From: a virus
DNA length: 24,960 bases
Virus record (IMG/VR): IMGVR_UViG_3300010885_018111
Coordinates: 1 to 24,960 of that record
Direction: 5' to 3' (one strand)
The notes beneath the pieces were generated by a model. It had not been told where the DNA came from. It saw only the letters and a list, made by a program, of their open reading frames with translations, and did no database searches. Below are positions 4,475 to 24,008 of this stretch, in pieces (the stretch's first letter is position 1; each line of letters starts with the position of its first letter). Both the position numbers and the translations under genes were made by a program.

Positions 4475-6687
4475 TGTGGCATCATCCCTTCAGGTGGCAT
4501 TTGTTCAGGAGGCATTTGTTCAGGTGGCATCATACCTTGAGGTTCGCCAACTTCGGTCTGCTCTCTAGGCATTTCATTAACCAAATCACCGCTAGTAATC
4601 ATTCCATGCACGGTGCCAAGCACAATGTCTTGGATCTGTTCAGGTGACATAGACGCTTGAACGGCAGTAATACGCTTGGTTTCAGCATCAAACGCTTTAA
4701 TCATCGCTTCAAATTCTTTACGTTCCATGTCTTGCGCTTCAATGGATTTACCCACGTTTTGCAACATCTGGTGCATTTGTTCCATTTCTTGAGCCATTGC
4801 TTGCATTTGCTGTTCAGCAGCTTGCAGTGCAGGATCTTTGTCATCCACTTCCAATAGCTTAGGATCAATGGTCTTAGCAAAGCGAGCCGCCATCTCTTGA
4901 GCGCCAGGCCAATCCATGTTCTTGATAAACAAATCGCCTGCAACAGCCCAAAGCTGTGGGTTGCCTTGCAAAATCTGACCCATTGCGTCCATTGCTTCTT
5001 GACGCTTGGTCATATAGCTTGGGCCTGTAGTGCAGACCACATCGTAATAGCCAACGCCAGGGTTGTATATCTTTTCAATCACAATGCCTGCTTGGTCAAC
5101 GATTTTCTTAACTGGCTCAGGTTGCTGAGGGTTAATCTTAACCATATCGACTTCACCATCCATACCTACGATACGGGCAATACGCTCGGTGTCGTAAATC
5201 TTAGGAATCATGTCTACTAATTGACGGGTGATGTGGCGAACCGCACGGGCGAGGTTGTCGCCATAGTGATATGTACCTACATCGCCTTGTTTTTCACGGG
5301 CAAGGATTGCTTTACCGCTGCGTTCGTTGCTTGTTGCGCCCAAACTAGAGTCATATTGACCTGTTGTGGACTTAATATCGTCGCTTGCACCAGCTTTAGC
5401 TTGTAAAAGACCGCTTGAAGCCATTGGTGGTTGGGCGCGTTGCGGTAATGGCAATATGCCGCCCATACCATCGGTTACATCAGGATTAACCTCTAAATAC
5501 GGCCAATTTGTTGTGTTGGCTGTTTTCCAATTGGTTTCGTAACCCTCAAATTGACCGCCATAACCGATAAATGGTGCTTTTGGAGCCAAAGCAAGCATTT
5601 CTGCTTCTTGCGAAACCCAATAGTTGTACATCCTTTGAGCATCTTTAGCGTTGCGTACCAAGCCTGAGATGTAAATCTGACCATCTACCTCAAATTCGTT
5701 GCCGATCACCCGTACCACAGGGATCCATTTACCTGCCCATTCACGTTCTTCTAACGCTTCAAAGCCATTGGTTTTCATCCACATGACTGTTTTAGCGTCT
5801 ACGATGCGGCTATTGACGGGTTTTAGACCCATATCCTTCATTTGCTTATCTTCAGGGCTTCCTTCGTAAAACGCTTGGTTGCCAGGGTATAAATTCAGCT
5901 TTTTGGTCTTGTGCTTGTAGTAAAAATACTCCGCAACGCGGATGGTATCTTCTGTTAGCCACTGAGAGAGGTATTGATCGCCTACACCGCTTGCCAAAAT
6001 AGAGCTTATGGGCGCGGCATCAGGGTATTCACGCTCATATTCTTCTTTGGTCATGTCCTGAGTAATAAACGTCCACTCGGCGTCAGCGCCAGTAGGGTCT
6101 TGGGACATCGGATCCATGTAAACAGAGAACGAGTTGCGAACGCGCCCAATGCGTAGGTCTTGATCGAACGAATCGTCGTGGCAATACTCGGTTAATACCC
6201 GAATGTAGCCTTCACCATACGTTACTTGGTTCTCGCAAGCCGTGTCGTAGGCAACATCAGCATCACTCATATACTCGATATGGCGAACCATACCTTCAAA
6301 AATCTGTGCTACTTCAACATCCGCTTTGTCGTCCGCAGGGATGACTTTCCCAGAGGGTCGGTTCTGACGTTGTTCGTTTGTTACCTGGTGGACGTGCTGT
6401 GGCAGCTTGTTAATGGTCAAACAAGGACGGGCGTTGATTGTTTGCCCCTGTACTGAACCACGGGTTGCCAATACATCAGCAGGCCATTGCCACTGATTGT
6501 CTGGTGATCCAGCCATAAACCGCAAGTCATCTAGCTCATCTTCACGGGAATCACTAAACGCTGCAACCGCCATTGTGTAGCGGGTACGCATTTCAGCAAG
6601 GGTATCCGTGTGATCGGTAGGCGCCCCTTCAGGGCCACCTCTTGCAGCTACTATGCCTGCCTTGTTTATACCTGTAGGATCATTCAT
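4471..6687 (-). CDS. Portal protein, P22-like
   Basis: 738 residues, the normal size for P22-type portals. The protein forms the dodecameric ring at the capsid vertex through which TerL pumps DNA. Evidence: the N-terminal helix region with SREDELDDLRFMAGSPDNQW, the segment RPCLTINKLPQHVHQVTNEQ, GEGYIRVLTEY, the DPMSQDPTGADAEW patch around residue 195, and the position directly downstream of TerL. The C-terminal 130 residues are methionine/glutamine-rich coiled coil (the barrel region) and end in a short proline repeat (MPPEQ twice, then MPPEG). The ATG at 6687 overlaps the GroES-like gene by 8 nt (ATGAATGA). Confidence 0.92.
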   Translation of the reverse strand: MNDPTGINKAGIVAARGGPEGAPTDHTDTLAEMRTRYTMAVAAFSDSREDELDDLRFMAGSPDNQWQWPADVLATRGSVQGQTINARPCLTINKLPQHVHQVTNEQRQNRPSGKVIPADDKADVEVAQIFEGMVRHIEYMSDADVAYDTACENQVTYGEGYIRVLTEYCHDDSFDQDLRIGRVRNSFSVYMDPMSQDPTGADAEWTFITQDMTKEEYEREYPDAAPISSILASGVGDQYLSQWLTEDTIRVAEYFYYKHKTKKLNLYPGNQAFYEGSPEDKQMKDMGLKPVNSRIVDAKTVMWMKTNGFEALEEREWAGKWIPVVRVIGNEFEVDGQIYISGLVRNAKDAQRMYNYWVSQEAEMLALAPKAPFIGYGGQFEGYETNWKTANTTNWPYLEVNPDVTDGMGGILPLPQRAQPPMASSGLLQAKAGASDDIKSTTGQYDSSLGATSNERSGKAILAREKQGDVGTYHYGDNLARAVRHITRQLVDMIPKIYDTERIARIVGMDGEVDMVKINPQQPEPVKKIVDQAGIVIEKIYNPGVGYYDVVCTTGPSYMTKRQEAMDAMGQILQGNPQLWAVAGDLFIKNMDWPGAQEMAARFAKTIDPKLLEVDDKDPALQAAEQQMQAMAQEMEQMHQMLQNVGKSIEAQDMERKEFEAMIKAFDAETKRITAVQASMSPEQIQDIVLGTVHGMITSGDLVNEMPREQTEVGEPQGMMPPEQMPPEQMPPEGMMPQ

Positions 6688-15559: not shown

Positions 15560-15592
15560 CCCCCTAGCTAATCACTAGGGGGTTTTTCTTTT
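15560..15592 (+). terminator. Plus-strand terminator inside the minus replication operon
   Basis: CCCCCTAG (15560-15567) and CTAGGGGG (15575-15582) give a perfect 8-bp stem with a 7-nt loop followed by TTTTTCTTTT. Both flanking genes are on the minus strand, where the same hairpin has an A tract before it and no T run after it. It should therefore stop antisense transcription, and on the sense mRNA be only an intercistronic hairpin between polymerase and helicase. Confidence 0.8.
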
Positions 15593-17552
15593 ATTTGCCA
15601 TACCTTTGCATTGAATGTATCTCAACGCCAAGGGGAATTCCGGTAGCCCAATCGGGCGGTGTACACATCACTTCTTCCATTCGTTTTATGATCGCTTCGG
15701 GCTGATCTGTTTCGATAACAATTTCGTCATGTACGTGAAGTACGACATCATCCAATTGACGTAAAGAATGTCTAAGTAAATCATTGGCGACGGCTTGGGT
15801 GATGTTTTCACAGGCTAATCCTTTCCATAATCTTGCTCTAGGCCATTCCTTTGCATCGGCTGCGGGTTTCCATGCTGCTTTAGCGTAGGTAACCCCATCA
15901 ACCTCTAATTTAGCAAACGGATAACAAAGAACTCTGCCCGAAGGTAGAGCATACCAAAGATGCAAGCCATCGTACATATAGGTAACCCTACCTGCGGAAA
16001 ACTCATGCTTTGGGTTACGCATTGCCCGTGTGTAGGCTGATTCTAAGTCTTGCCAATACGGAACTGCCCACGGGTTAGCCATGCGCCAGCCTGTGACCAT
16101 GCGCTTGGCTTGTGGCTCAGGCAACAAAATGCCATAGGCTCTGCCCATCGCAGCAAACGCGCCCACACCACCTGCAAACCCACAGGCTAACTCTTGAACT
16201 TTGCCGATTTGTCTTTGCTCACCATCGACATCAGCAACGGGGACGTGGAAAGTTGCTGAGGCGTTAACTTTATAGACATCTTTTCCAGATGCAAAGAGAT
16301 GTAACTTTTCCGCCCCCGCTTCGCTGTTGGAGAGCCAGGGGTTAACTCTAGCTTCGATTCCTGACCAATCGGCAACGACAAGGCTTTTGCCTGCGCTTGG
16401 GATAATGGCAGGTCGTAACATTCCTTTGAGTACATCGGTAACTCGGCGTCCAAAGGCAGGGACAATTGAGTGGCCTCTAACCATAGCTTGTCTAACGGCA
16501 TCAGGATCTTTAGCACACCTTCGGGTGAAATTGTGGACTTGGGCGCCGTAAGATGAGGCACGCCCAGTAGCACTTCCTCCAGCAAAGACAAACGCACCTC
16601 TAACTCGGCTATCTTCTTCATCTGCTAAATCCTTTAATCGGTTGAACTTCGCAACACTAGACGCCCATAGGTCGTCCGCACATTGGATAACATCCGCAAC
16701 TTCCGGCGGTATCTCATCGGGGTTTTCTTCAGCAAAAACAAGTAGGTTAGCTCGAACTGACTTGTCGATCGAATATTTCTTATCGCCATCTTTATACACT
16801 TCCATTAACTTTTTAGCTTCATCGCCAACACGCGCTAAGACCCACTCACGCATTCTAGGGCTACGTACCGAAGTGATCTCACCTTGCGTCACTTCAGCCA
16901 CAATCTGTTCAATTTCCTGTAATTCTTCCCCTGCGTAACGGATAGCTGCCTGCGCCAAAGGCTTATCTAACAGCACCCCACGATCATTGATGCGCTCATT
17001 GACATGGTAATCAGCCAACTCATTATCTGATAAATCACGCAAAGCTTGGCTAATCGCTCTCATGGCCCTAACGTCTTGCTCACAATAGGCGATCATCTCA
17101 GCCATCAGGGTTGGATCGTTGTTGAAGGTGCCATCAAGCTTGGGTATGGATAGCAGGCGTATCAACTGATTGCCACGGTGATCCTTACGCATATTGGCAC
17201 TAGCAAAACGCCCAACGTCCTCTAGGCTGCCAGGCGCGCAGTTGGCACGGGCTTGCGCCGCAGTACAATAGAACTGTTCTAGCTTTAGTTCTGGGATACC
17301 TTTGTCTGCTGACAGGACATACCACCAGATCAAGCGCTCGAACGCCGCGTTGTGCGCCCTGATTTGACCTGTGAAATTGGCTACCTCAGTAGGGAATGGC
17401 TGATCGGGTGTCCAAGTGACTACCTCAGCATCATCAAACGCATAAGACATACATAGCACTTGCGTGCTTGGGTCTTGGGCGTAGTTGTACACCCCACGGG
17501 TACGCAAGTCGCACCGTGAGCGTGTTTCAAAATCAATCCAAAGAATATTCAC
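15591..17552 (-). CDS. DNA polymerase, family A, with 3'-5' exonuclease
   Basis: 653 residues. Proofreading domain: LWIDFETRS (Asp7, Glu9), HNAAFE (67-72) and YCEQDV (156-161, Asp160). Polymerase domain: motif A VVADWSGIEARV (Asp395, Glu400), motif B around 447-465 (RQIGKVQELACGFAGGVGAF, in which Lys451 fits the conserved lysine), and motif C LHVHDEIVIE (605-614; Asp609, Glu610). No 5'-nuclease domain. All catalytic residues are there, so it should be the replicative polymerase. The start is GTG 17552, in a GTGA overlap with the upstream coiled-coil gene. No obvious clamp-binding peptide is seen at the C-terminus. Confidence 0.95.
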   Translation of the reverse strand: MNILWIDFETRSRCDLRTRGVYNYAQDPSTQVLCMSYAFDDAEVVTWTPDQPFPTEVANFTGQIRAHNAAFERLIWWYVLSADKGIPELKLEQFYCTAAQARANCAPGSLEDVGRFASANMRKDHRGNQLIRLLSIPKLDGTFNNDPTLMAEMIAYCEQDVRAMRAISQALRDLSDNELADYHVNERINDRGVLLDKPLAQAAIRYAGEELQEIEQIVAEVTQGEITSVRSPRMREWVLARVGDEAKKLMEVYKDGDKKYSIDKSVRANLLVFAEENPDEIPPEVADVIQCADDLWASSVAKFNRLKDLADEEDSRVRGAFVFAGGSATGRASSYGAQVHNFTRRCAKDPDAVRQAMVRGHSIVPAFGRRVTDVLKGMLRPAIIPSAGKSLVVADWSGIEARVNPWLSNSEAGAEKLHLFASGKDVYKVNASATFHVPVADVDGEQRQIGKVQELACGFAGGVGAFAAMGRAYGILLPEPQAKRMVTGWRMANPWAVPYWQDLESAYTRAMRNPKHEFSAGRVTYMYDGLHLWYALPSGRVLCYPFAKLEVDGVTYAKAAWKPAADAKEWPRARLWKGLACENITQAVANDLLRHSLRQLDDVVLHVHDEIVIETDQPEAIIKRMEEVMCTPPDWATGIPLGVEIHSMQRYGK

Positions 17553-17809
17553 TTCTTTGTCCAGCTTTCTACAATTTCTAACGATTGTTTAGTAAGCATC
17601 AACTTATCTTTTAATGACTCATTTTCTTCTTTTAATAACTTAATATTTTGTTTAGCCTCGGTAAATCTTGACCCAAGACGTAAAAAACACGCGTCTAATT
17701 TAGCTATTTCTTGGCACAAAATTTTTATCATAGTAGAGTGCGTTTCATACCCGTCATGCTCTAGTTCATGCGCCAATTTATAGGCGGCTTTACTTACTTT
17801 AACGTCCAT
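17549..17809 (-). CDS. Coiled-coil protein encoded before the polymerase, 86 aa
   Basis: 86 residues starting MDVKVSKAAYKLAHELEHDG. Residues 42-80 form a long charged helix (TEAKQNIKLLKEENESLKDK, then MLTKQSLEIVESW) with heptad leucines, a predicted coiled coil; the N-terminal half is also helical. AGTAAAGGA upstream of the ATG resembles the leader motif found at other genes. It overlaps the polymerase GTG by 4 nt, so the two are probably co-translated; a polymerase-associated role is possible but not shown. Confidence 0.68.
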   Translation of the reverse strand: MDVKVSKAAYKLAHELEHDGYETHSTMIKILCQEIAKLDACFLRLGSRFTEAKQNIKLLKEENESLKDKLMLTKQSLEIVESWTKK

Positions 17810-17836
17810 TTATCTGTCCTTTACTGTACTGTGGGT

Positions 17837-17926
17837 GGGGTGTCGATTTGGTTGCTACTACGTGTGTGCTAGAAGGCAGAAAAAAAGCACGCTTGCAACA
17901 TCCTCGAAAGTCTGCCTAACCACCCC
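17837..17926. ncRNA. Candidate structured RNA with pseudoknot
   Basis: The 122-nt gap 17810-17931 holds complementary segments: GGGGTG 17837-17842 with CACCCC 17921-17926 (outer stem); GTTGC 17851-17855 with GCAAC 17895-17899, and GTGTGCT 17864-17870 with AGCACGC 17886-17892 (stacked hairpin); AGGCAGA 17874-17880, in the hairpin loop, with TCTGCCT 17911-17917 (pseudoknot). On the plus strand all pair (one G-U); on the minus, sense-mRNA strand one G-U becomes a C-A mismatch. It could be a cis-regulatory element of the replication operon or an antisense RNA. No known riboswitch class is recognised. Confidence 0.42.
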
Positions 17927-17931
17927 GTTTA

Positions 17932-18075
17932 TTACTCTGCTGCCGCAGGTTTAGTGTTTTCTTGCGCTTGAATCTGCGCCATAGCTTGCGCTTTGATCTT
18001 TTCTACAAGACCTGCGTTCATAGCTGCCAAAACCTGATTAATTTCTTCTACAGATAGTTGTAAATTAATTATCAT
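17932..18075 (-). CDS. Small helical phage protein, 47 aa
   Basis: 47 residues, MIINLQLSVEEINQVLAAMN followed by AGLVEKIKAQAMAQIQAQEN and TKPAAAE. I recognise the I.LS.EE.N.VLAAL....V..L..KI..QA..Q pattern as a small phage protein commonly encoded just after the ssDNA-binding-slot gene, as here. It is all helix with a glutamine/alanine-rich tail. GGAG lies 7 nt before the ATG, 1 nt after the upstream stop. Function unknown. Confidence 0.7.
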   Translation of the reverse strand: MIINLQLSVEEINQVLAAMNAGLVEKIKAQAMAQIQAQENTKPAAAE

Positions 18076-18076
18076 A

Positions 18077-18730
18077 TTAAGCTCCTGTACGACGGCGACG
18101 TGCTGGCGCTGCTTCAGCTACGGGCGCTTCAATTGCTGGCGCTTCTTCGGCTTGTGCATCACCATCCATACCAACCCACTCTAATACCTGAAACACAGGC
18201 GTAAAGATACGGCCATAGGATTTGTGGGTGTAATGCTCTTTACCCAACTCAACCACAGGTACTGGCTTGTCTTGTTCTTTCTCTACTTGCGTAGCAATAG
18301 CAACTGCCAAGGCCTGAACCGCTTTTTTACCGCCTACCGAAGTAGTGGTGTAACGCGCTTCCATACCTTTATCTTCGCCAGACAAGCATTTGATAGACAT
18401 CCCAACCTGCGTTTCCCAACCCTTTTTAGCACCAGGAGGCGCTGCTTCAAGCTCAGGCAATGGCTGGCTTACGCTAACCATCTTCTCAGCTAGTACTTCA
18501 CCATCACCCCACGCAATATAGCCGTGAACAAAGGAGAAAGGATTAACCGCCCATGAGGAATCATCTTCGATTTCGGTCTGCTCTGCACCGAACACCCAAT
18601 GACCTGTTTTGTCCATCTTAAGAATTACGGTGCCTACGCCGCCAACATCGGTTTCAATGGTACGTAAGGCTGTAGCCAATGATTTAACTGAAGGAAGGTT
18701 TGCACCTGAGAATGTAGTGATATTTGACAT
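18077..18730 (-). CDS. Conserved replication-cassette protein, candidate ssDNA-binding
   Basis: 217 residues. The N-terminus MSNITTFSGANLPSVKSLAT leads into beta-rich segments (GTVILKMDKTGHWVFGAE, FVHGYIAWGD) and HKSYGRIFTPVFQVLEWVGM; the end is an acidic Glu/Ala/Pro linker (residues 190-210) capped by ARRRRTGA. It occupies the position where many phages carry a DUF2815-type ssDNA-binding protein, between a Cas4-like nuclease and the polymerase. Unlike typical SSBs, whose tail is acidic and hydrophobic, this tail is basic at its tip. ssDNA binding is inferred from place and general fold only. AAGGAC precedes the ATG. Confidence 0.6.
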   Translation of the reverse strand: MSNITTFSGANLPSVKSLATALRTIETDVGGVGTVILKMDKTGHWVFGAEQTEIEDDSSWAVNPFSFVHGYIAWGDGEVLAEKMVSVSQPLPELEAAPPGAKKGWETQVGMSIKCLSGEDKGMEARYTTTSVGGKKAVQALAVAIATQVEKEQDKPVPVVELGKEHYTHKSYGRIFTPVFQVLEWVGMDGDAQAEEAPAIEAPVAEAAPARRRRTGA

Positions 18731-18741
18731 TATTTAAGTCC

Positions 18742-19878
18742 TTATTGAAGTTTAGAAAGGGCTGCGGTCAGTTGCTGCCCGATTTGTAATACCGCCGGTC
18801 TTGGATCAGAGTCCTCAACCAACGTACTGCCACTGCTTACTGCTACTATTTGATTAGCAGGCAATTGCTTGCCATGCTTTTTCAATACTTTTTCTGCTTG
18901 GGCTGGAGATATTACCTTAGTTGTAGTCAATTCCTCCTCAGGAATACCCTCATTAAGCATAGCAACCAAGGCTTGATCTTCATCACCCCATTGACGGGTA
19001 GCCCGTTTAGCGACCAATTTAAAGCCTGGCACAGGTTTGCCTGTTTCTAAAACTTGGTGCGCTAACCCACGCACATCCGCAATCCATTGCTCTAGCATAT
19101 CTGCTTTCTTGAGGTATTCGCTGATCTGCACCACGTCAAGAACATCTAGTTTAGCGTGTAATGACCGATCTGCAAGGCCTGTCATCTTAGGGCAAGTAGG
19201 CTTGGCGGCACACCAACGGCAATGATCGCCTGTGTTCAATGGTGCATCTGGCATCCCTGCAATCTTGACCGCCATAGCCAACTCTAGCTCAAACTCTTGA
19301 ATCCGTTTTTTGGTAGTAACCCAACGCTTGATAGATGGTGGCTGAACAATAACGCACTCAATCTCGGTGCAATCATCAAACACCCATTTAGCTTCAGCGG
19401 TACGCATGGCTGCCGCCGCATAAAACATTAACTGAAAATTATCGGTAGCATCCACAGCAACGCCGCTACCAAATTTCCAATCCAAAACAACAGCGCGCCC
19501 ACCAATACGACCAAGAAGATCAGTACTCCCAAACACACCAGGTAGAAAATCTCCGAATCCAACACGCGTTTCAGTTGCATATTCCATCTCCTTATTAGGG
19601 TCAATTTCATTTAACAGAGCTAAAGCAGGGTAAATTTTGTCGTCTAACAACTCTTGCGTAAGCACTTGATCTTCATATTTCATGCCAAGAAGTTCTTCGG
19701 GCTTATGCCCAGCTAGAACTAAATCCATAACGCTATGACAAAGGGTGCCTTCGTCAGCGTACTTGCTAGAGGGTTTAGGAGGCATTTTGTCGCATAAGGC
19801 TACAGAGCCAGGGCAACTGATGACGCGTTTGGCGGTAGAACCACCGACTACACGGGAATGTTTTACTACATCGTTCAT
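18742..19878 (-). CDS. DUF2800-like PD-(D/E)XK nuclease, Cas4-like Fe-S
   Basis: 378 residues. Nuclease residues: GTLCHSVMD (Glu43, His48), FGSTDLLGR (Asp120), VVLDWKFG (Asp133, Lys135) and Gln149 in DNFQLMFY. Cysteines 22, 220, 223 and 229 (ISCPG near the N-terminus and DHCRWCAAKPTC) match the four-cysteine iron-sulfur cluster of Cas4/AddB-type exonucleases. Phage proteins of this kind (DUF2800) precede the polymerase in many replication cassettes and are thought to process DNA ends for recombination. It heads the minus replication operon, and its ATG follows leader motif copy 4. All catalytic residues are present. Confidence 0.85.
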   Translation of the reverse strand: MNDVVKHSRVVGGSTAKRVISCPGSVALCDKMPPKPSSKYADEGTLCHSVMDLVLAGHKPEELLGMKYEDQVLTQELLDDKIYPALALLNEIDPNKEMEYATETRVGFGDFLPGVFGSTDLLGRIGGRAVVLDWKFGSGVAVDATDNFQLMFYAAAAMRTAEAKWVFDDCTEIECVIVQPPSIKRWVTTKKRIQEFELELAMAVKIAGMPDAPLNTGDHCRWCAAKPTCPKMTGLADRSLHAKLDVLDVVQISEYLKKADMLEQWIADVRGLAHQVLETGKPVPGFKLVAKRATRQWGDEDQALVAMLNEGIPEEELTTTKVISPAQAEKVLKKHGKQLPANQIVAVSSGSTLVEDSDPRPAVLQIGQQLTAALSKLQ

Positions 19879-19882
19879 TTTG

Positions 19883-19898
19883 TTTCCTTTACTTTAGT
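19883..19898 (-). promoter_or_regulatory. Leader motif ACTAAAGTAAAGGAAA, copy 4 (minus strand)
   Basis: Ends 4 nt before ATG 19878 on the minus strand; exactly matches the copy before the clamp gene. Confidence 0.6.
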
Positions 19899-19951
19899 TG
19901 ACTGAGATTAAACTTTACCACAACTTTTATTTGTGTGCTAAACTTTTTTAC
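19899..19951. promoter_or_regulatory. Divergent promoter region
   Basis: For the plus operon, TGCTAAACT (extended -10, 19936-19944) ends exactly 7 nt before ATG 19952 with no Shine-Dalgarno site between; TTACCA 18 bp upstream is a possible -35. For the minus operon, TTTAAT (19912-19907) is a possible -10 without a good -35. The half-site TAAACTTT occurs at 19909 and 19939, about 30 bp apart, and may be an operator. Confidence 0.45.
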
Positions 19952-20248
19952 ATGAATACAAAAACTAAACCTGAAAGAGAAGCAGAAATTGAAAAATATT
20001 TTTGTTGGGCGGTAGCGTCAATTGGCGGCAAGACTTATAAGTTCAAGTCTATCAGCCAGCGTGGGGTTGCTGATCGTATAGCCTGTTTGCCCAATGGCGA
20101 CACTTGGTTTGTTGAAATTAAACGCCCTAAAGGTGGTGTTTTATCGCCTTTGCAAGATTTATTTGCGGATGAAATGTGGGCGTTAAAACAACACTATGTG
20201 TGCTTGTGGACTAAAGAAGATGTTATGAAATGGATTGCTGACTTATGA
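19952..20248 (+). CDS. VRR-NUC domain nuclease
   Basis: 98 residues, a stand-alone VRR-NUC (PD-(D/E)XK) domain. RGVADRIACLPNGDTWFVEI spans the core: GVADRI at 38-43 with Asp41, and VEIKRPKGG with Glu55 and Lys57; Glu12 in the first helix completes the usual site. In phages this domain is normally next to an SNF2-type helicase and is thought to cut branched or flapped DNA. I start at ATG 19952, where family sequence begins; a frame from 19898 would add 18 residues over the promoter. It overlaps the next gene as ATGA. Its sequence is AT-richer than the helicase gene downstream. Confidence 0.85.
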   Translation: MNTKTKPEREAEIEKYFCWAVASIGGKTYKFKSISQRGVADRIACLPNGDTWFVEIKRPKGGVLSPLQDLFADEMWALKQHYVCLWTKEDVMKWIADL

Positions 20249-20847
20249 GTAAAGTTGATTTTGTTGTTAAAAACGTGACTAAAGCTGAGTGTGCAAAAAT
20301 TCTTTTAACACATCATTATTTAAAAAATATTAGCAAAGGTTTTAAAAGCGGGTTTAACTACGGCGTATATAAAAACAATGTTTGCGTCGGTGTTGTTATT
20401 TATACGGGTTTTCCCGTGCCAGAATTAGCTAAAGGAATGTTAGGGTTAGAACGCAACGACCAAGAAGGACTATTTGAGCTTAGCCGGCTTTGCTTAACGC
20501 CAGAAATACAACGAGAAGAACATAACCTTGCGTCGTGGTTTGTAGCTAAATCATTAACTAAGCTGCAAAAGGAAACAAAAGTACGCGTTGTTTTATCGTA
20601 TGCAGACGCCGATTTTCATAGTGGAACTGTTTATCGTGCCAGTAATTTTAATTACTACGGTTTAACTACACCTAAAAAAGATTTTTGGGTTAGACAATTT
20701 GATGGCAGTTATATAAAACATAGCCGAGGAAAAGTTAAAGGGGTAAATGGTGAGTGGCGTAAACGTAGTCAAAAACATCGTTTTGTGTTGGTATTTGATA
20801 AACAGTTAAAAATTTTATGGAAAAAAATACCTTATGAAGCTACGTGA
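20245..20847 (+). CDS. Mom-like DNA-modification protein (GNAT fold)
   Basis: 200 residues. The pattern matches the family of phage Mu Mom, which converts adenine to its N6-methylcarbamoyl form and shields phage DNA from restriction. Seen here: THHYLKN (22-28), VYKNNVCVGVVIYTGFPVP (41-59), FELSRLCL (77-84), NLASWFVAKSLTKLQ (94-108), VVLSYADADFHSGTVYRASN (115-134), FNYYGLTTP (135-143) and a basic end with HSRGK and KRSQKHRF. The order ELSRL ... N..S.F...L ... SYAD...GT.Y.A..F.Y.G.T is that of Mom-like proteins. It is nested by overlaps between VRR-NUC and SNF2 genes and is AT-rich (15 G+C in the 60 bases 20281-20340). The modified base and target sequence are not predictable. Confidence 0.78.
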   Translation: MSKVDFVVKNVTKAECAKILLTHHYLKNISKGFKSGFNYGVYKNNVCVGVVIYTGFPVPELAKGMLGLERNDQEGLFELSRLCLTPEIQREEHNLASWFVAKSLTKLQKETKVRVVLSYADADFHSGTVYRASNFNYYGLTTPKKDFWVRQFDGSYIKHSRGKVKGVNGEWRKRSQKHRFVLVFDKQLKILWKKIPYEAT

Positions 20848-22168
20848 TTACCAAGAAAAGGCAGCCGACTTCTTGTACGAGAACAACCGCGCCATGATCC
20901 TTGCCCCTGTGGGCGCGGGAAAGACGGCGCTGACGCTAACAGCCATGCAAGATATGCTGCGCTACAAGATTGTCAAACGGTGGCTTGTGCTGGCTCCTAA
21001 GCGGGTCTGTACGGACGTATGGCCTGTAGAGCAACTTAAGTGGGCTACGGATACGCCGATTGCAATAGCGGTGGGTACACCTGCCCAGCGTAGCCAAGCA
21101 CTATATTCGGGTTTTCCCGTAGTGGTAAGTAACTACGACAACATTCAATGGTTGTCGGAACAGCAGCTAGACTTTGACGGGATTGTGTTTGACGAATTAA
21201 CCAAGCTCAAGAACCCATCTGGCAAGCGCTTTAAAGCATTGGCTAAGGTGGTAGATAACATCAAGATACGTTGGGGTTTGACAGGCAGCTTTACTAGCAA
21301 CGGCCTTGAGGATGTCTTTGGTCAATGCAAAATTGTTAACCAAGACCTGCTTGGACGGGCTAAAGGCGCGTTTATGCAGCAGTACTTTGTCCTGGTCAAT
21401 AAAGACTTTGGCGAATGGGAACCCCGTGTAGGCTCACTAGGAAAAGTTATGGAACGCATTAAACCCGCAACATTTGTATTAGAAGCAGGCGAATACGCTG
21501 ACAAGCTGCCGCCATGCCACGTTGTTGAGATGAAGTGCGACCTTACAGACCGCGCCCCATACGAAAAAATGAAAAAAGATTTTGTGCTTGAGTTTAAAGA
21601 TAAGGTCATTACCGCCGTTAACGCAGGGGTTGTTACAGGCAAACTGCAACAGATGGCAGGCGGCTGGGTCTATGAAACGGTTACGACCCCATCCACTACG
21701 CCAGGGCGCATGAACATCAGCCAAACGCCAGTGTGGTTTTCAAGCCACAAATTTGATTTGCTTGATGAATTGCTTGAGGAAAATCAACACGCCAACACCA
21801 TCATTGTTTACAACTACGTAGAGGAATTGGCTGAACTTAAGCGCCGCTACCCTACCGCACAGACAATCAACGATACCAAGGTCATTGAGCGTTGGAATGA
21901 TGGCAAAGTTGAGTTGTTACTAATTCACCCTAAGTCTGCCGGGCATGGCCTTAATCTTCAGCATGGCGGGTGCAAAATGGTCTTTGTATCTTTGCCTTGG
22001 AGCCTTGAGTTGTACGAACAAACCATCGGGCGCTTGCACCGCAGCGGTCAAAAGCATGATGTATGGGTGTACCTTTTGTTGACCAATAAAACGATTGACG
22101 AAAGGATTTGGGATGCCCTGAAAGATAAACGGGCGCTGTCTGACATAGCACTAGAGGAGTTGAAATGA
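20834..22168 (+). CDS. SNF2-family DNA helicase/translocase
   Basis: 444 residues. Motif I APVGAGKTAL (24-33), motif II FDELTKLKN (119-127), GLTGSFTSN as motif III near residue 154, and the C-terminal lobe with SAGHGLNLQHGG and QTIGRLHRSGQ (396-406, motif VI). Motif II is DELT rather than DEAH. Such compact SNF2 enzymes are paired with VRR-NUC in phages and probably remodel forks or recombination intermediates. The gene overlaps the Mom-like gene by 14 nt; GGA lies 15 nt before ATG 20834. Its G+C is clearly higher than that of the two genes before it (30 of 60 bases at 20941-21000). Confidence 0.9.
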   Translation: MKLRDYQEKAADFLYENNRAMILAPVGAGKTALTLTAMQDMLRYKIVKRWLVLAPKRVCTDVWPVEQLKWATDTPIAIAVGTPAQRSQALYSGFPVVVSNYDNIQWLSEQQLDFDGIVFDELTKLKNPSGKRFKALAKVVDNIKIRWGLTGSFTSNGLEDVFGQCKIVNQDLLGRAKGAFMQQYFVLVNKDFGEWEPRVGSLGKVMERIKPATFVLEAGEYADKLPPCHVVEMKCDLTDRAPYEKMKKDFVLEFKDKVITAVNAGVVTGKLQQMAGGWVYETVTTPSTTPGRMNISQTPVWFSSHKFDLLDELLEENQHANTIIVYNYVEELAELKRRYPTAQTINDTKVIERWNDGKVELLLIHPKSAGHGLNLQHGGCKMVFVSLPWSLELYEQTIGRLHRSGQKHDVWVYLLLTNKTIDERIWDALKDKRALSDIALEELK

Positions 22169-22329
22169 AATTACTAGACGAAGCAAAGAAATTGGCTGAC
22201 GACATAGCGGAATATGCGCCAAGTACCAATATTGAGCTAATGATCCGCAATTTAATTAAAGAAATAGAAAGGTCACAAAGTGAAAAGACTGTTGCAGTTA
22301 AAAGCAAAACTAAAGCTAAAGCAAGCTGA
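22165..22329 (+). CDS. Small charged helical protein, 54 aa
   Basis: Starts in an ATGA overlap with the helicase stop, with GGAG 7 nt upstream. MKLLDEAKKLADDIAEYAPS is followed by TNIELMIRNLIKEIERSQSE and a basic tail rich in Lys/Thr/Ala (KSKTKAKAS). All helix, no cysteines or membrane segment. Likely translationally coupled to the helicase; function unknown. Confidence 0.65.
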   Translation: MKLLDEAKKLADDIAEYAPSTNIELMIRNLIKEIERSQSEKTVAVKSKTKAKAS

Positions 22330-22453
22330 AAGCGTCATTCGTGTACGTAACTATGGCACGGCTGCTAGGGCGTTAACTAGAACGATTGAAGAAATCAAAG
22401 CGTTGAAGGAAAGGATTAAGAATGAAGAAGTTAAGCTGGCGGGAACTAAATAA
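22280..22453 (+). CDS. Small basic helical protein, 57 aa (GTG start)
   Basis: A frame from GTG 22280, with AAAGG 6 nt upstream, that overlaps the preceding gene by 50 nt. It starts MKRLLQLKAKLKLKQAESVI and continues RVRNYGTAARALTRTIEEIK, ending EEVKLAGTK. It is a very basic helix pair with coiled-coil character. The ribosome site and the end just past the next start fit the packing of this operon. The overlap makes the exact start less certain. Function unknown. Confidence 0.55.
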   Translation: MKRLLQLKAKLKLKQAESVIRVRNYGTAARALTRTIEEIKALKERIKNEEVKLAGTK

Positions 22454-22616
22454 TCAGCTTTCCATGATGTCTGAAGCGGATGTTTGGGAATTGTTAGAAA
22501 CCGAGCGTTTTGGTGAGAAACGCTCATCTGTATTGCAACGCCTGCACCAACGCTATAACGTGCTACGGGTGGCTAGAGAGAGGATTGAAATACTAAAGTT
22601 AGCGGTAAAACCATGA
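22422..22616 (+). CDS. Small hypothetical protein, 64 aa
   Basis: MKKLSWRELNNQLSMMSEAD, then VWELLETERFGEKRSSVLQR and LHQRYNVLRVARERIEILKL. Helical, with the WRELN...M....VW.LLE.E..G.RR..VL.RLHQRYN.LR..RER layout I know from small proteins of tailed phages. AAGGA lies 9 nt before the ATG. It overlaps its upstream neighbour by 32 nt and its downstream neighbour as ATGA. Function unknown. Confidence 0.68.
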   Translation: MKKLSWRELNNQLSMMSEADVWELLETERFGEKRSSVLQRLHQRYNVLRVARERIEILKLAVKP

Positions 22617-22765
22617 CGCCACCTGATTTTGGGTCTTGGAAACATGAAAATTTAGTTAAGTTAGCAGAAGAAATGTACGTTGAGTTAAGGGCTTTGCGCC
22701 AAGACGTAAAGGACGCAATTAAGGCTTACCGTGAACTAAACACAAAGGAGAAGGAAAATGGATAG
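22613..22765 (+). CDS. Small hypothetical protein, 50 aa
   Basis: Starts in an ATGA overlap. MTPPDFGSWKHENLVKLAEE is followed by MYVELRALRQDVKDAIKAYR and ELNTKEKENG. The first ten residues (PPDFGSWKHENL) resemble small phage proteins of replication regions; the rest is one long helix. The sequence upstream, ACTAAAGTTAGCGGTAAA, partly matches the leader motif but lies in coding sequence. Function unknown. Confidence 0.6.
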   Translation: MTPPDFGSWKHENLVKLAEEMYVELRALRQDVKDAIKAYRELNTKEKENG

Positions 22766-23081
22766 CAGCTTATTTTATTTAACTATTGGCATCTGCGCTG
22801 GCTGGTTAGCTGGTGCTAGCGATTGCCAGGCTCAAACGCAGTATTTTTACGGCTCACAAGGCCAAGCTATTGGCACGGCGCAGACGTTTAACGGCACTAC
22901 GTACTTCTACAACGCTCAAGGGCAATCTGTTGCGTCTGCACAACAGTTTAATAATACAACCTACGTATACGGCTCACAAGGGCAGAACCTTGGCACAGTG
23001 CAGACGTTTACTTACGCACCCCATACAATACCTATTACGCCGTCATTGACGCCTATCTATGACTCAATTTTTGGTAAATAA
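22758..23081 (+). CDS. Secreted repeat protein, 107 aa
   Basis: An N-terminal hydrophobic segment (SLFYLTIGICAGWLAGAS) and small residues before the first repeat suggest a signal peptide or anchor ending near residue 25. Then three 20-residue repeats follow, each of the form Y.YGSQGQ..GTAQ.FN.TT (about residues 29-48, 49-68 and 69-85), and a proline-rich end. Such Y.Y...GQ..G.A repeats occur in exported phage and bacterial proteins of unknown role. AAGGAGAAGGAAA precedes the ATG. It is probably periplasmic or on the cell surface, which is unusual among replication-operon genes. Confidence 0.65.
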   Translation: MDSSLFYLTIGICAGWLAGASDCQAQTQYFYGSQGQAIGTAQTFNGTTYFYNAQGQSVASAQQFNNTTYVYGSQGQNLGTVQTFTYAPHTIPITPSLTPIYDSIFGK

Positions 23082-23083
23082 CA

Positions 23084-23278
23084 ATGCGGCTTTGCATAAA
23101 CTGTAGACAACACAAAAACAGCACAAACGGAACAGCGGTAATTAATTCAACTGGTTTAACTTATAAATGGTTTTGTAATGATTGCATTAAAAAAAGGATT
23201 GAAAATGAGAATGGACGAATTAAAAAGATTATGGCTATTACTAATAACGCCTTTAACATCAAGCGAAAGGGCGGTTAA
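23084..23278 (+). CDS. Small zinc-finger-like protein, 64 aa
   Basis: Two cysteine pairs, CINC (residues 4-7) and CNDC (31-34), 23 residues apart, form a probable zinc ribbon; the text starts MRLCINCRQHKNSTNGTAVI and the tail is Lys/Arg/Asn-rich. GGTAAA lies upstream of the ATG, 2 nt after the previous stop. DNA, RNA or protein binding are all possible. Confidence 0.65.
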   Translation: MRLCINCRQHKNSTNGTAVINSTGLTYKWFCNDCIKKRIENENGRIKKIMAITNNAFNIKRKGG

Positions 23279-23429
23279 AGAGTTAGAAAGCGCCAAACGT
23301 AGCTATCTAGAGCATAAAACGCACGCTGAGTATTACCAATCCCTTTGTAGTTTTGAAACGCAACGGATTAAACGGCTAGAACAGTACCTTGAGGAACCAT
23401 CCCCAACGCCGCCTGTTTCACACACTTAA
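23205..23429 (+). CDS. Small phage coiled-coil protein, 74 aa
   Basis: Starts at ATG 23205 after AAGGA, overlapping the zinc-finger gene by 74 nt; an ATG at 23178 has no ribosome site. MRMDELKRLWLLLITPLTSS is a hydrophobic, possibly membrane-touching start; then ERAVKELESAKRSYLEHKTH and a helix with CSFETQRIKRLEQYLEE. This two-part form (short hydrophobic segment plus ELE.A.RSLLEA....EYA......RI.RLE..L) is a common small phage family of unknown function. Last gene of the plus operon; its stop overlaps the convergent endolysin stop region by 12 nt. Confidence 0.68.
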   Translation: MRMDELKRLWLLLITPLTSSERAVKELESAKRSYLEHKTHAEYYQSLCSFETQRIKRLEQYLEEPSPTPPVSHT

Positions 23430-24008
23430 TGCGTGAAAAGCATTAGCAATCTTGGCTTTGCGGTCATCTAATCCAATCAGGCCACCATTGATGCGTTTAG
23501 TCATTGTTTCAAAGTCCTTGGAATCAGCTAAAGCATTTAATCCTTTTTTGTTCCAGAACCACCCTGCGGAAAGGCAAGCATATCGTGGATCCAGCAATAA
23601 AGCAGGGTCAGCAAGAAGATCAGCACCAATACCCAATCCGCAGTGTTCATAGTTTTCCTTACCAGTTAGCTGAATTAAACCCCTGCCTAAATATTTAGCA
23701 GCTTCTTCTTCGCTAGTGTTACCTAAACGCCCGTTATATACCTTGCCAGCAATTTTGGCTGGTTGGCGAGCGTATTGGTCTGCCATTTCTTTAGTTGGAA
23801 AACGGCTAGGCCAAGTTTTCATTAGCCCTTCAGCGCTGTAATTGAGGTTTTCTTGCAAGGTTTTAAAGTTACCAGACTCATGGGCGCATTGCCCAATAAA
23901 GGCAGATTGACGCTCTTTAGTGTTGATTTCGTATTTCTTAAAGGTTTCGTTTAATGGTTCTAACCATTTTTCATCAATACCTAAAACTTTAAGTTGCTCA
24001 TTCGTCAT
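23418..24008 (-). CDS. GH19-family endolysin
   Basis: 196 residues. FIGQCAHESGNFKTLQENLN (38-57) carries the catalytic Glu44 of glycoside hydrolase family 19, and Glu53 fits a second acidic position; KYLGRGLIQLTGKENY (105-120) is the family signature, and AGWFWNKKGLN follows. GH19 enzymes of phages cleave peptidoglycan and are typical endolysins. No signal peptide, so export needs the holin. The 11-nt overlap with the upstream membrane-protein gene and the neighbouring holin-like gene make a lysis cassette. Confidence 0.9.
   Translation of the reverse strand: MTNEQLKVLGIDEKWLEPLNETFKKYEINTKERQSAFIGQCAHESGNFKTLQENLNYSAEGLMKTWPSRFPTKEMADQYARQPAKIAGKVYNGRLGNTSEEEAAKYLGRGLIQLTGKENYEHCGLGIGADLLADPALLLDPRYACLSAGWFWNKKGLNALADSKDFETMTKRINGGLIGLDDRKAKIANAFHALSV

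Follow-up and report, generated by a model that had tools for sequence, protein, structure and literature searches.

DNA methyltransferases are well-known protective enzymes of phages. Mom proteins have a fold unrelated to that of methyltransferases, which use SAM as cofactor, and add a larger group; to our knowledge the cofactor of Mom and its role outside phage Mu are poorly known. Mu Mom has been deposited in the PDB (8bv8) as 'Methylcarbamoylase mom', in an entry whose title calls S124A an inactive mutant. In the phage Mu record mom lies at the right end with com just upstream, and it is a late gene under the control of C and Dam sites. Mu Mom confers protection against restriction enzymes (PMC6483171), and Mom is listed among the protective phage DNA modifications in a review that also describes a role for orphan phage methyltransferases in restriction escape and phage regulation (PMC12707154).

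Relatives of Mom were found in 225 of 50,697 phage records, often annotated as 'acetyltransferase', and mom recurs within replication blocks in several unrelated phages. In Microbacterium phage BarnCat it overlaps the gene for polymerase I, and in Salmonella phage VSiP that for the polymerase; it follows the polymerase in Enterococcus phage Stockyards and lies between the DHFR and helicase genes in Klebsiella phage K64-1, while Roseobacter phage CRP-212 carries Mom in a primase-helicase-polymerase-RNR block.

The window analysed here, meaning the whole stretch of DNA under study, constitutes a virus record of 24,960 bases in which a P22-like portal gene is present. A preliminary description had proposed a Mom-like DNA-modification gene at positions 20245-20847, and an open reading frame with all of the motifs that it named (ELSRL, NLASWFVAKSL, SYAD, GTVYRASNF and YGLTTP) is present there on the + strand, running from an ATG start to a TGA stop and encoding 200 amino acids. 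The product matches Pfam PF25680 (E 6e-27; score 95 bits, with the cut-off at 27.1, over positions 1-190 of the 202 in the profile) and the PHROG Mom family (PHROG 1384; E 2e-34), and in a sequence search of the PDB the Mu Mom chain 8bv8 was the best and sole meaningful match (E 1.7e-5). This similarity is far above chance and, on sequence evidence, 20245-20847 encodes a new member of the known Mom family. A scan of viral contigs with the window Mom as single query returned no relatives; with an alignment as query it returned many.

An AlphaFold2 model, built with 41 viral-contig relatives as input, had a mean pLDDT of 93.7 and a pTM of 0.87. The GNAT/Mom fold that had been proposed agrees with this prediction, for which Mu Mom was the clear top match by both Foldseek (8bv8, E 2e-11) and VIA-align (180 residues aligned at Z 18.9 with an rmsd of 3.5 A); the VIA-align runner-up was a generic GNAT acetyltransferase at Z 14.3. 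The window and Mu proteins share family and fold and retain the same Ser, Asp, H-Y, E-L-x-R and Y-x-A-x-N positions, although their identity is only about 22-23%. In the alignment S97 of the window Mom corresponds to S124 of Mu Mom and D121 to D149; residues H24, Y25, E78, R81, G127, Y130, A132, N134 and G139 are invariant in both Mom alignments (one of them with 42 rows), and H24-Y25, E78, R81, Y130, A132, N134 and G139 are unchanged between the window and Mu proteins. Short insertions in the window Mom (approximately residues 29-36 and 87-93, before strand 3 and before N-x-x-S) are absent from Mu Mom, so that its product could differ from that of Mu.

It is improbable that the gene encodes a GNAT-fold acyltransferase whose substrate is not DNA but a small molecule or a protein, such as a host defence protein, given that Mu Mom is clearly the closest relative in both structure and sequence, and that the acetyl-CoA pattern of ordinary GNAT enzymes (Q/RxxGxG/A) had no match in the window Mom sequence. 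The GNAT fold is common to many N-acetyltransferases and the label 'acetyltransferase' is frequent among the relatives, but such an activity would also be a poor fit to the position of mom, which is the one taken by DNA methyltransferases in related phages (see below).

The gene had further been described as nested between a nuclease and a helicase gene and overlapping both, and this arrangement is confirmed. The left neighbour (19952-20248, + strand) encodes a VRR-NUC-like PD-(D/E)XK nuclease that matches the PHROG 93 endonuclease family (E 2e-21) and the PDB nuclease 4qbn (E 2e-4), and a homologue of it matches Pfam VRR_NUC just under the cut-off; of two possible starts, the ATG at 19952 and a TTG at 19898, the former was preferred since it is where the alignments with homologues begin. 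The right neighbour (20834-22168, + strand; Pfam, PHROGs) encodes an SNF2-family helicase whose start at 20834 is credible because the protein begins with a conserved KLRDYQ...LAPVGAGKT segment. Nuclease and mom overlap by 4 bp, ATGA (20245-20248), and mom and helicase by 14 bp, with the stop codon of mom lying within the start of the helicase gene. The 7-mer CTTATGA is present on the + strand at both junctions, at 20242-20248 (nuclease stop and mom start) and at 20831-20837 (helicase start); this repeat, which is short and to some extent dictated by the codons, is compatible with an insertion of mom into the single ATGA junction seen in relatives that have no gene between nuclease and helicase.

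A 73-bp control region (19879-19951) separates the nuclease-mom-helicase operon (+) from a divergent replication operon (-), and both its length and its sequence are conserved among close relatives. The first gene of the divergent operon is a DUF2800/PD-(D/E)XK exonuclease-like gene (18742-19878, - strand; Pfam, PHROGs), which is adjoined by a gene for a protein of 217 amino acids (PHROG 9528); the operon also includes a family A DNA polymerase (15591-17552, - strand; Pfam, PHROGs). Within the control region TAAACTTT occurs twice in direct orientation (GATTAAACTTTAC ... GTGCTAAACTTTTTT), directly before the nuclease start, and this direct repeat is a possible operator for both operons.

Since nuclease, mom and helicase genes are co-oriented, follow one another without gaps and have this one 73-bp control region, co-expression of mom and helicase is the simplest reading and is likely; early expression of mom is plausible from its position. 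The number of promoter and terminator sites predicted in 17500-24000 did not exceed that in shuffled sequences. The com zinc-finger gene that overlaps the start of mom in Mu has no counterpart at the start of this mom, which is overlapped from upstream by the nuclease gene, and the fold of 20195-20285 is no stronger than those of shuffled sequences (z 0.83), without sign of the hairpin that inhibits translation of mom in Mu. A translational lock of the Mu kind is therefore not expected. Only two GATC sites are present in 19600-20300; mom of the window lies beside replication genes, whereas Mu has it at the late genome end.

The contents of the slot between nuclease and helicase were surveyed in loci obtained by scanning viral contigs with the window helicase, the window nuclease and the helicase of a second Mom-bearing locus (L255), with the best 80 of 551 helicase-matching contigs taken per scan. 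Among the matches listed, 227 loci had both genes, the window included, and these formed 142 clusters at 95% identity. The slot was empty in 73 of the 142 clusters from these listed matches, with nuclease and helicase genes abutting or overlapping, commonly by a single 4-base ATGA. A DNA methyltransferase (C5, Dam or others) was present in 46, an HNH endonuclease in six and small or unclassified ORFs in 15; Mom occupied the slot in two clusters among the same matches, the window and L255, the latter with a Pfam Mom match of E 1.6e-42. Representatives of the slot methyltransferases were checked and corresponded to PF00145 (C5, several subtypes), Dam PF05869 and PHROG 757, 363 and 1008, and stop-to-stop reading of individual slots returned Mom in L255, Dam in L235 and a C5 methyltransferase in L238. 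A DNA-modification gene is thus found in 48 of the 54 clusters with a classified occupant among the matches listed, although the slot is not reserved for such genes, as its HNH genes and small ORFs show.

A control on whole records covered 31 long relatives (28-43 kb each) together with the L235 record (19.8 kb), 32 records in all, and searched for four methyltransferase families by Pfam/PHROG, with Mom as a fifth modification family. In these records, which were picked by length and in some cases with slot contents known beforehand, 10 of the 11 methyltransferase genes returned by the four family searches lay in the slot, as judged from converted record coordinates; the slot accounts for about 0.9% of the total length of the 31 long records. 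The slot held all C5 methyltransferases (7/7) and both strong phrog_757 matches (2/2) of the 31 long records, and the sole Dam gene (1/1) of the L235 record; one N6/N4 methyltransferase was the only member of the four families found elsewhere, and two more phrog_757 matches (E 2e-4) fall within genes included above as C5 methyltransferases. The informative part of this control is that methyltransferases of the four families are nearly absent outside the slot. No Mom was found in the 31 long relatives with PF25680, an absence that is meaningful because the same search finds Mom in 8/8 known carriers.

Of the 31 long records, 21 were negative for all five of the modification families that were searched, and the nuclease therefore seems to need no partner mark. 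This bears on the possibility that nuclease and Mom are the two halves of a restriction-modification pair carried by the phage, in which Mom would mark phage DNA and the nuclease (with the helicase) would destroy unmarked host or rival-phage DNA, as would fit the overlap of mom with a PD-(D/E)XK-type nuclease gene and an SNF2 helicase gene and the published reading of Mom-endonuclease fusions in jumbo phages (PMC7824862). Such a pair is very improbable, however, when nuclease and helicase also stand without any intervening gene in about half of the clusters among the matches listed (73/142) and when most long records lack the modification families searched.

We consider it probable instead that the Mom-family enzyme of the window modifies the DNA of its own phage against host restriction, that its gene was inserted at a junction where modification genes are exchanged, and that it is likely co-read with the helicase. 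We infer that the protein would be a catalytically active GNAT-fold enzyme that modifies bases in the phage's own DNA (adenine N6 by analogy) by addition of a group, and that DNA so modified would escape cutting by host restriction endonucleases. The gene would have been inserted at the stop/start junction of the VRR-NUC-like nuclease and the SNF2 helicase, an exchange site that in most lineages is empty or holds one of several unrelated methyltransferases, with Mom as a rarer occupant; most likely read on the helicase message, it would provide for modification during DNA replication. Anti-restriction DNA modification is supported because Mom sits where methyltransferases sit. The orphan DNA methyltransferases that occupy the same slot in relatives of the window give independent support to the earlier proposal of a DNA-modification gene, which is probably right as a prediction. 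The proposed functional equivalence of the two kinds of enzyme also has a parallel in a preprint on marine mobile elements that groups methyltransferases and Mom-like proteins in one accessory module (PMC12324425).

The slot contents suggest that phages of this group exchange one means of hiding their DNA from bacterial defences for another. A stronger version, which we regard as doubtful, would make the junction a dedicated DNA-masking exchange socket of a large aquatic podovirus-like group, with SAM methylation repeatedly giving way to the different chemistry of Mom, carried out during replication; the clade of the window Mom, which has insertions of its own and one member fused to MazG, might then add another group or use another cofactor than Mu Mom.

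The Moms of the window and of L255 share 25% identity. In a tree the window Mom groups with those of CRP-212, L016 and L020, and the L255 Mom with that of BarnCat, in clades that are supported with bootstrap values not fully settled. Among the loci compared, the nearest kin of the window Mom are on contigs where the nuclease-helicase pair was not found. The GC content of mom is 35.2% (GC3 25%) against 48.5% (GC3 54%) for the helicase, a low value as expected for an acquired gene. Together, the separate clades, the low identity, the kin without the nuclease-helicase pair and the low GC point to two or more entries of Mom into the slot as the most likely history, with different Mom clades as sources. 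That the slot takes any short gene, with Mom there by chance as inactive or passing cargo of no effect on the phage, is the least probable explanation, for while HNH genes and small ORFs also use the slot and the low GC of mom marks a recent arrival, the mom frame is intact with all family-invariant residues retained, a large majority of classified occupants (48/54 clusters among the matches listed) are DNA-modification genes and the two probable arrivals of Mom came from different clades.

The preliminary description had also contrasted this locus with Mu, which is correct as far as Mu is concerned, with its late mom following com; the arrangement is no peculiarity of the window, as BarnCat, VSiP, Stockyards, K64-1 and CRP-212 demonstrate. 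In the first four of these phages, as in the window, mom adjoins or overlaps replication genes; unlike the window they have Moms of other clades, other neighbours and no nuclease-helicase slot. The CRP-212 Mom is closer to that of the window, with 57.7% identity over 194 amino acids, membership of a common clade and a location in a replication module, but it is an unannotated domain that shares a single frame, as a fusion, with a MazG pyrophosphohydrolase domain. The fused ORF (CRP-212, L002, 10342-11274) encodes 316 amino acids, and the record annotates the MazG half alone, from an internal start. Another contig, L021, has two overlapping Mom genes of different types (4786-5394 and 5321-6007), the second of which matches Pfam Mom with E 1.3e-43.

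In the limited range of literature searched we found no description of a methyltransferase/Mom exchange slot at a nuclease-helicase junction. The slot provides genetic evidence, independent of sequence similarity, for a Mom outside Mu doing the job of a methyltransferase. It also supplies a natural comparison set, in which near-identical replication modules carry no modification gene, a C5, Dam or other methyltransferase, or one of two types of Mom, and this set allows testing of which restriction systems each chemistry defeats. As a search rule, genes of no known function that lie between nuclease and helicase can be taken as candidates for DNA modification.

The second commonest slot gene (L168, L170, L228 and others) is the phrog_757 'DNA methyltransferase', a protein of about 200 amino acids with the segment ACEFSGxVRDAF..., which has no Pfam match at E 0.001 and is a predicted methyltransferase. 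Slots of 135-300 bp (L107, L109, L112, L155 and others) hold small ORFs, among them a family with MRYIVKDETGAMLRLFNTRQEALAFCQ... that has no Pfam or PHROG match, and the slot of L104 holds a DUF3268 zinc-finger protein; the small ORFs are candidates for small anti-restriction or regulatory proteins.

The source phage appears to be of a freshwater type, and the related slot-bearing group appears to consist of aquatic podovirus-like phages. The deposited phage set held no near relative, the nearest being ctNMl277 with a helicase identity of 62.8%. A genome scan with the helicase returned one fragment, on a contig of a Burkholderiales MAG (L176), with a helicase 88% identical to that of the window, which gives a weak hint of Burkholderiales as the host group. 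Elsewhere in the window, the gene at 11071-11718 matches both the Pfam beta-clamp central domain (E 1e-7) and a PHROG named 'RusA-like resolvase' (E 2e-28); it probably encodes a phage sliding clamp, with the PHROG misnamed.
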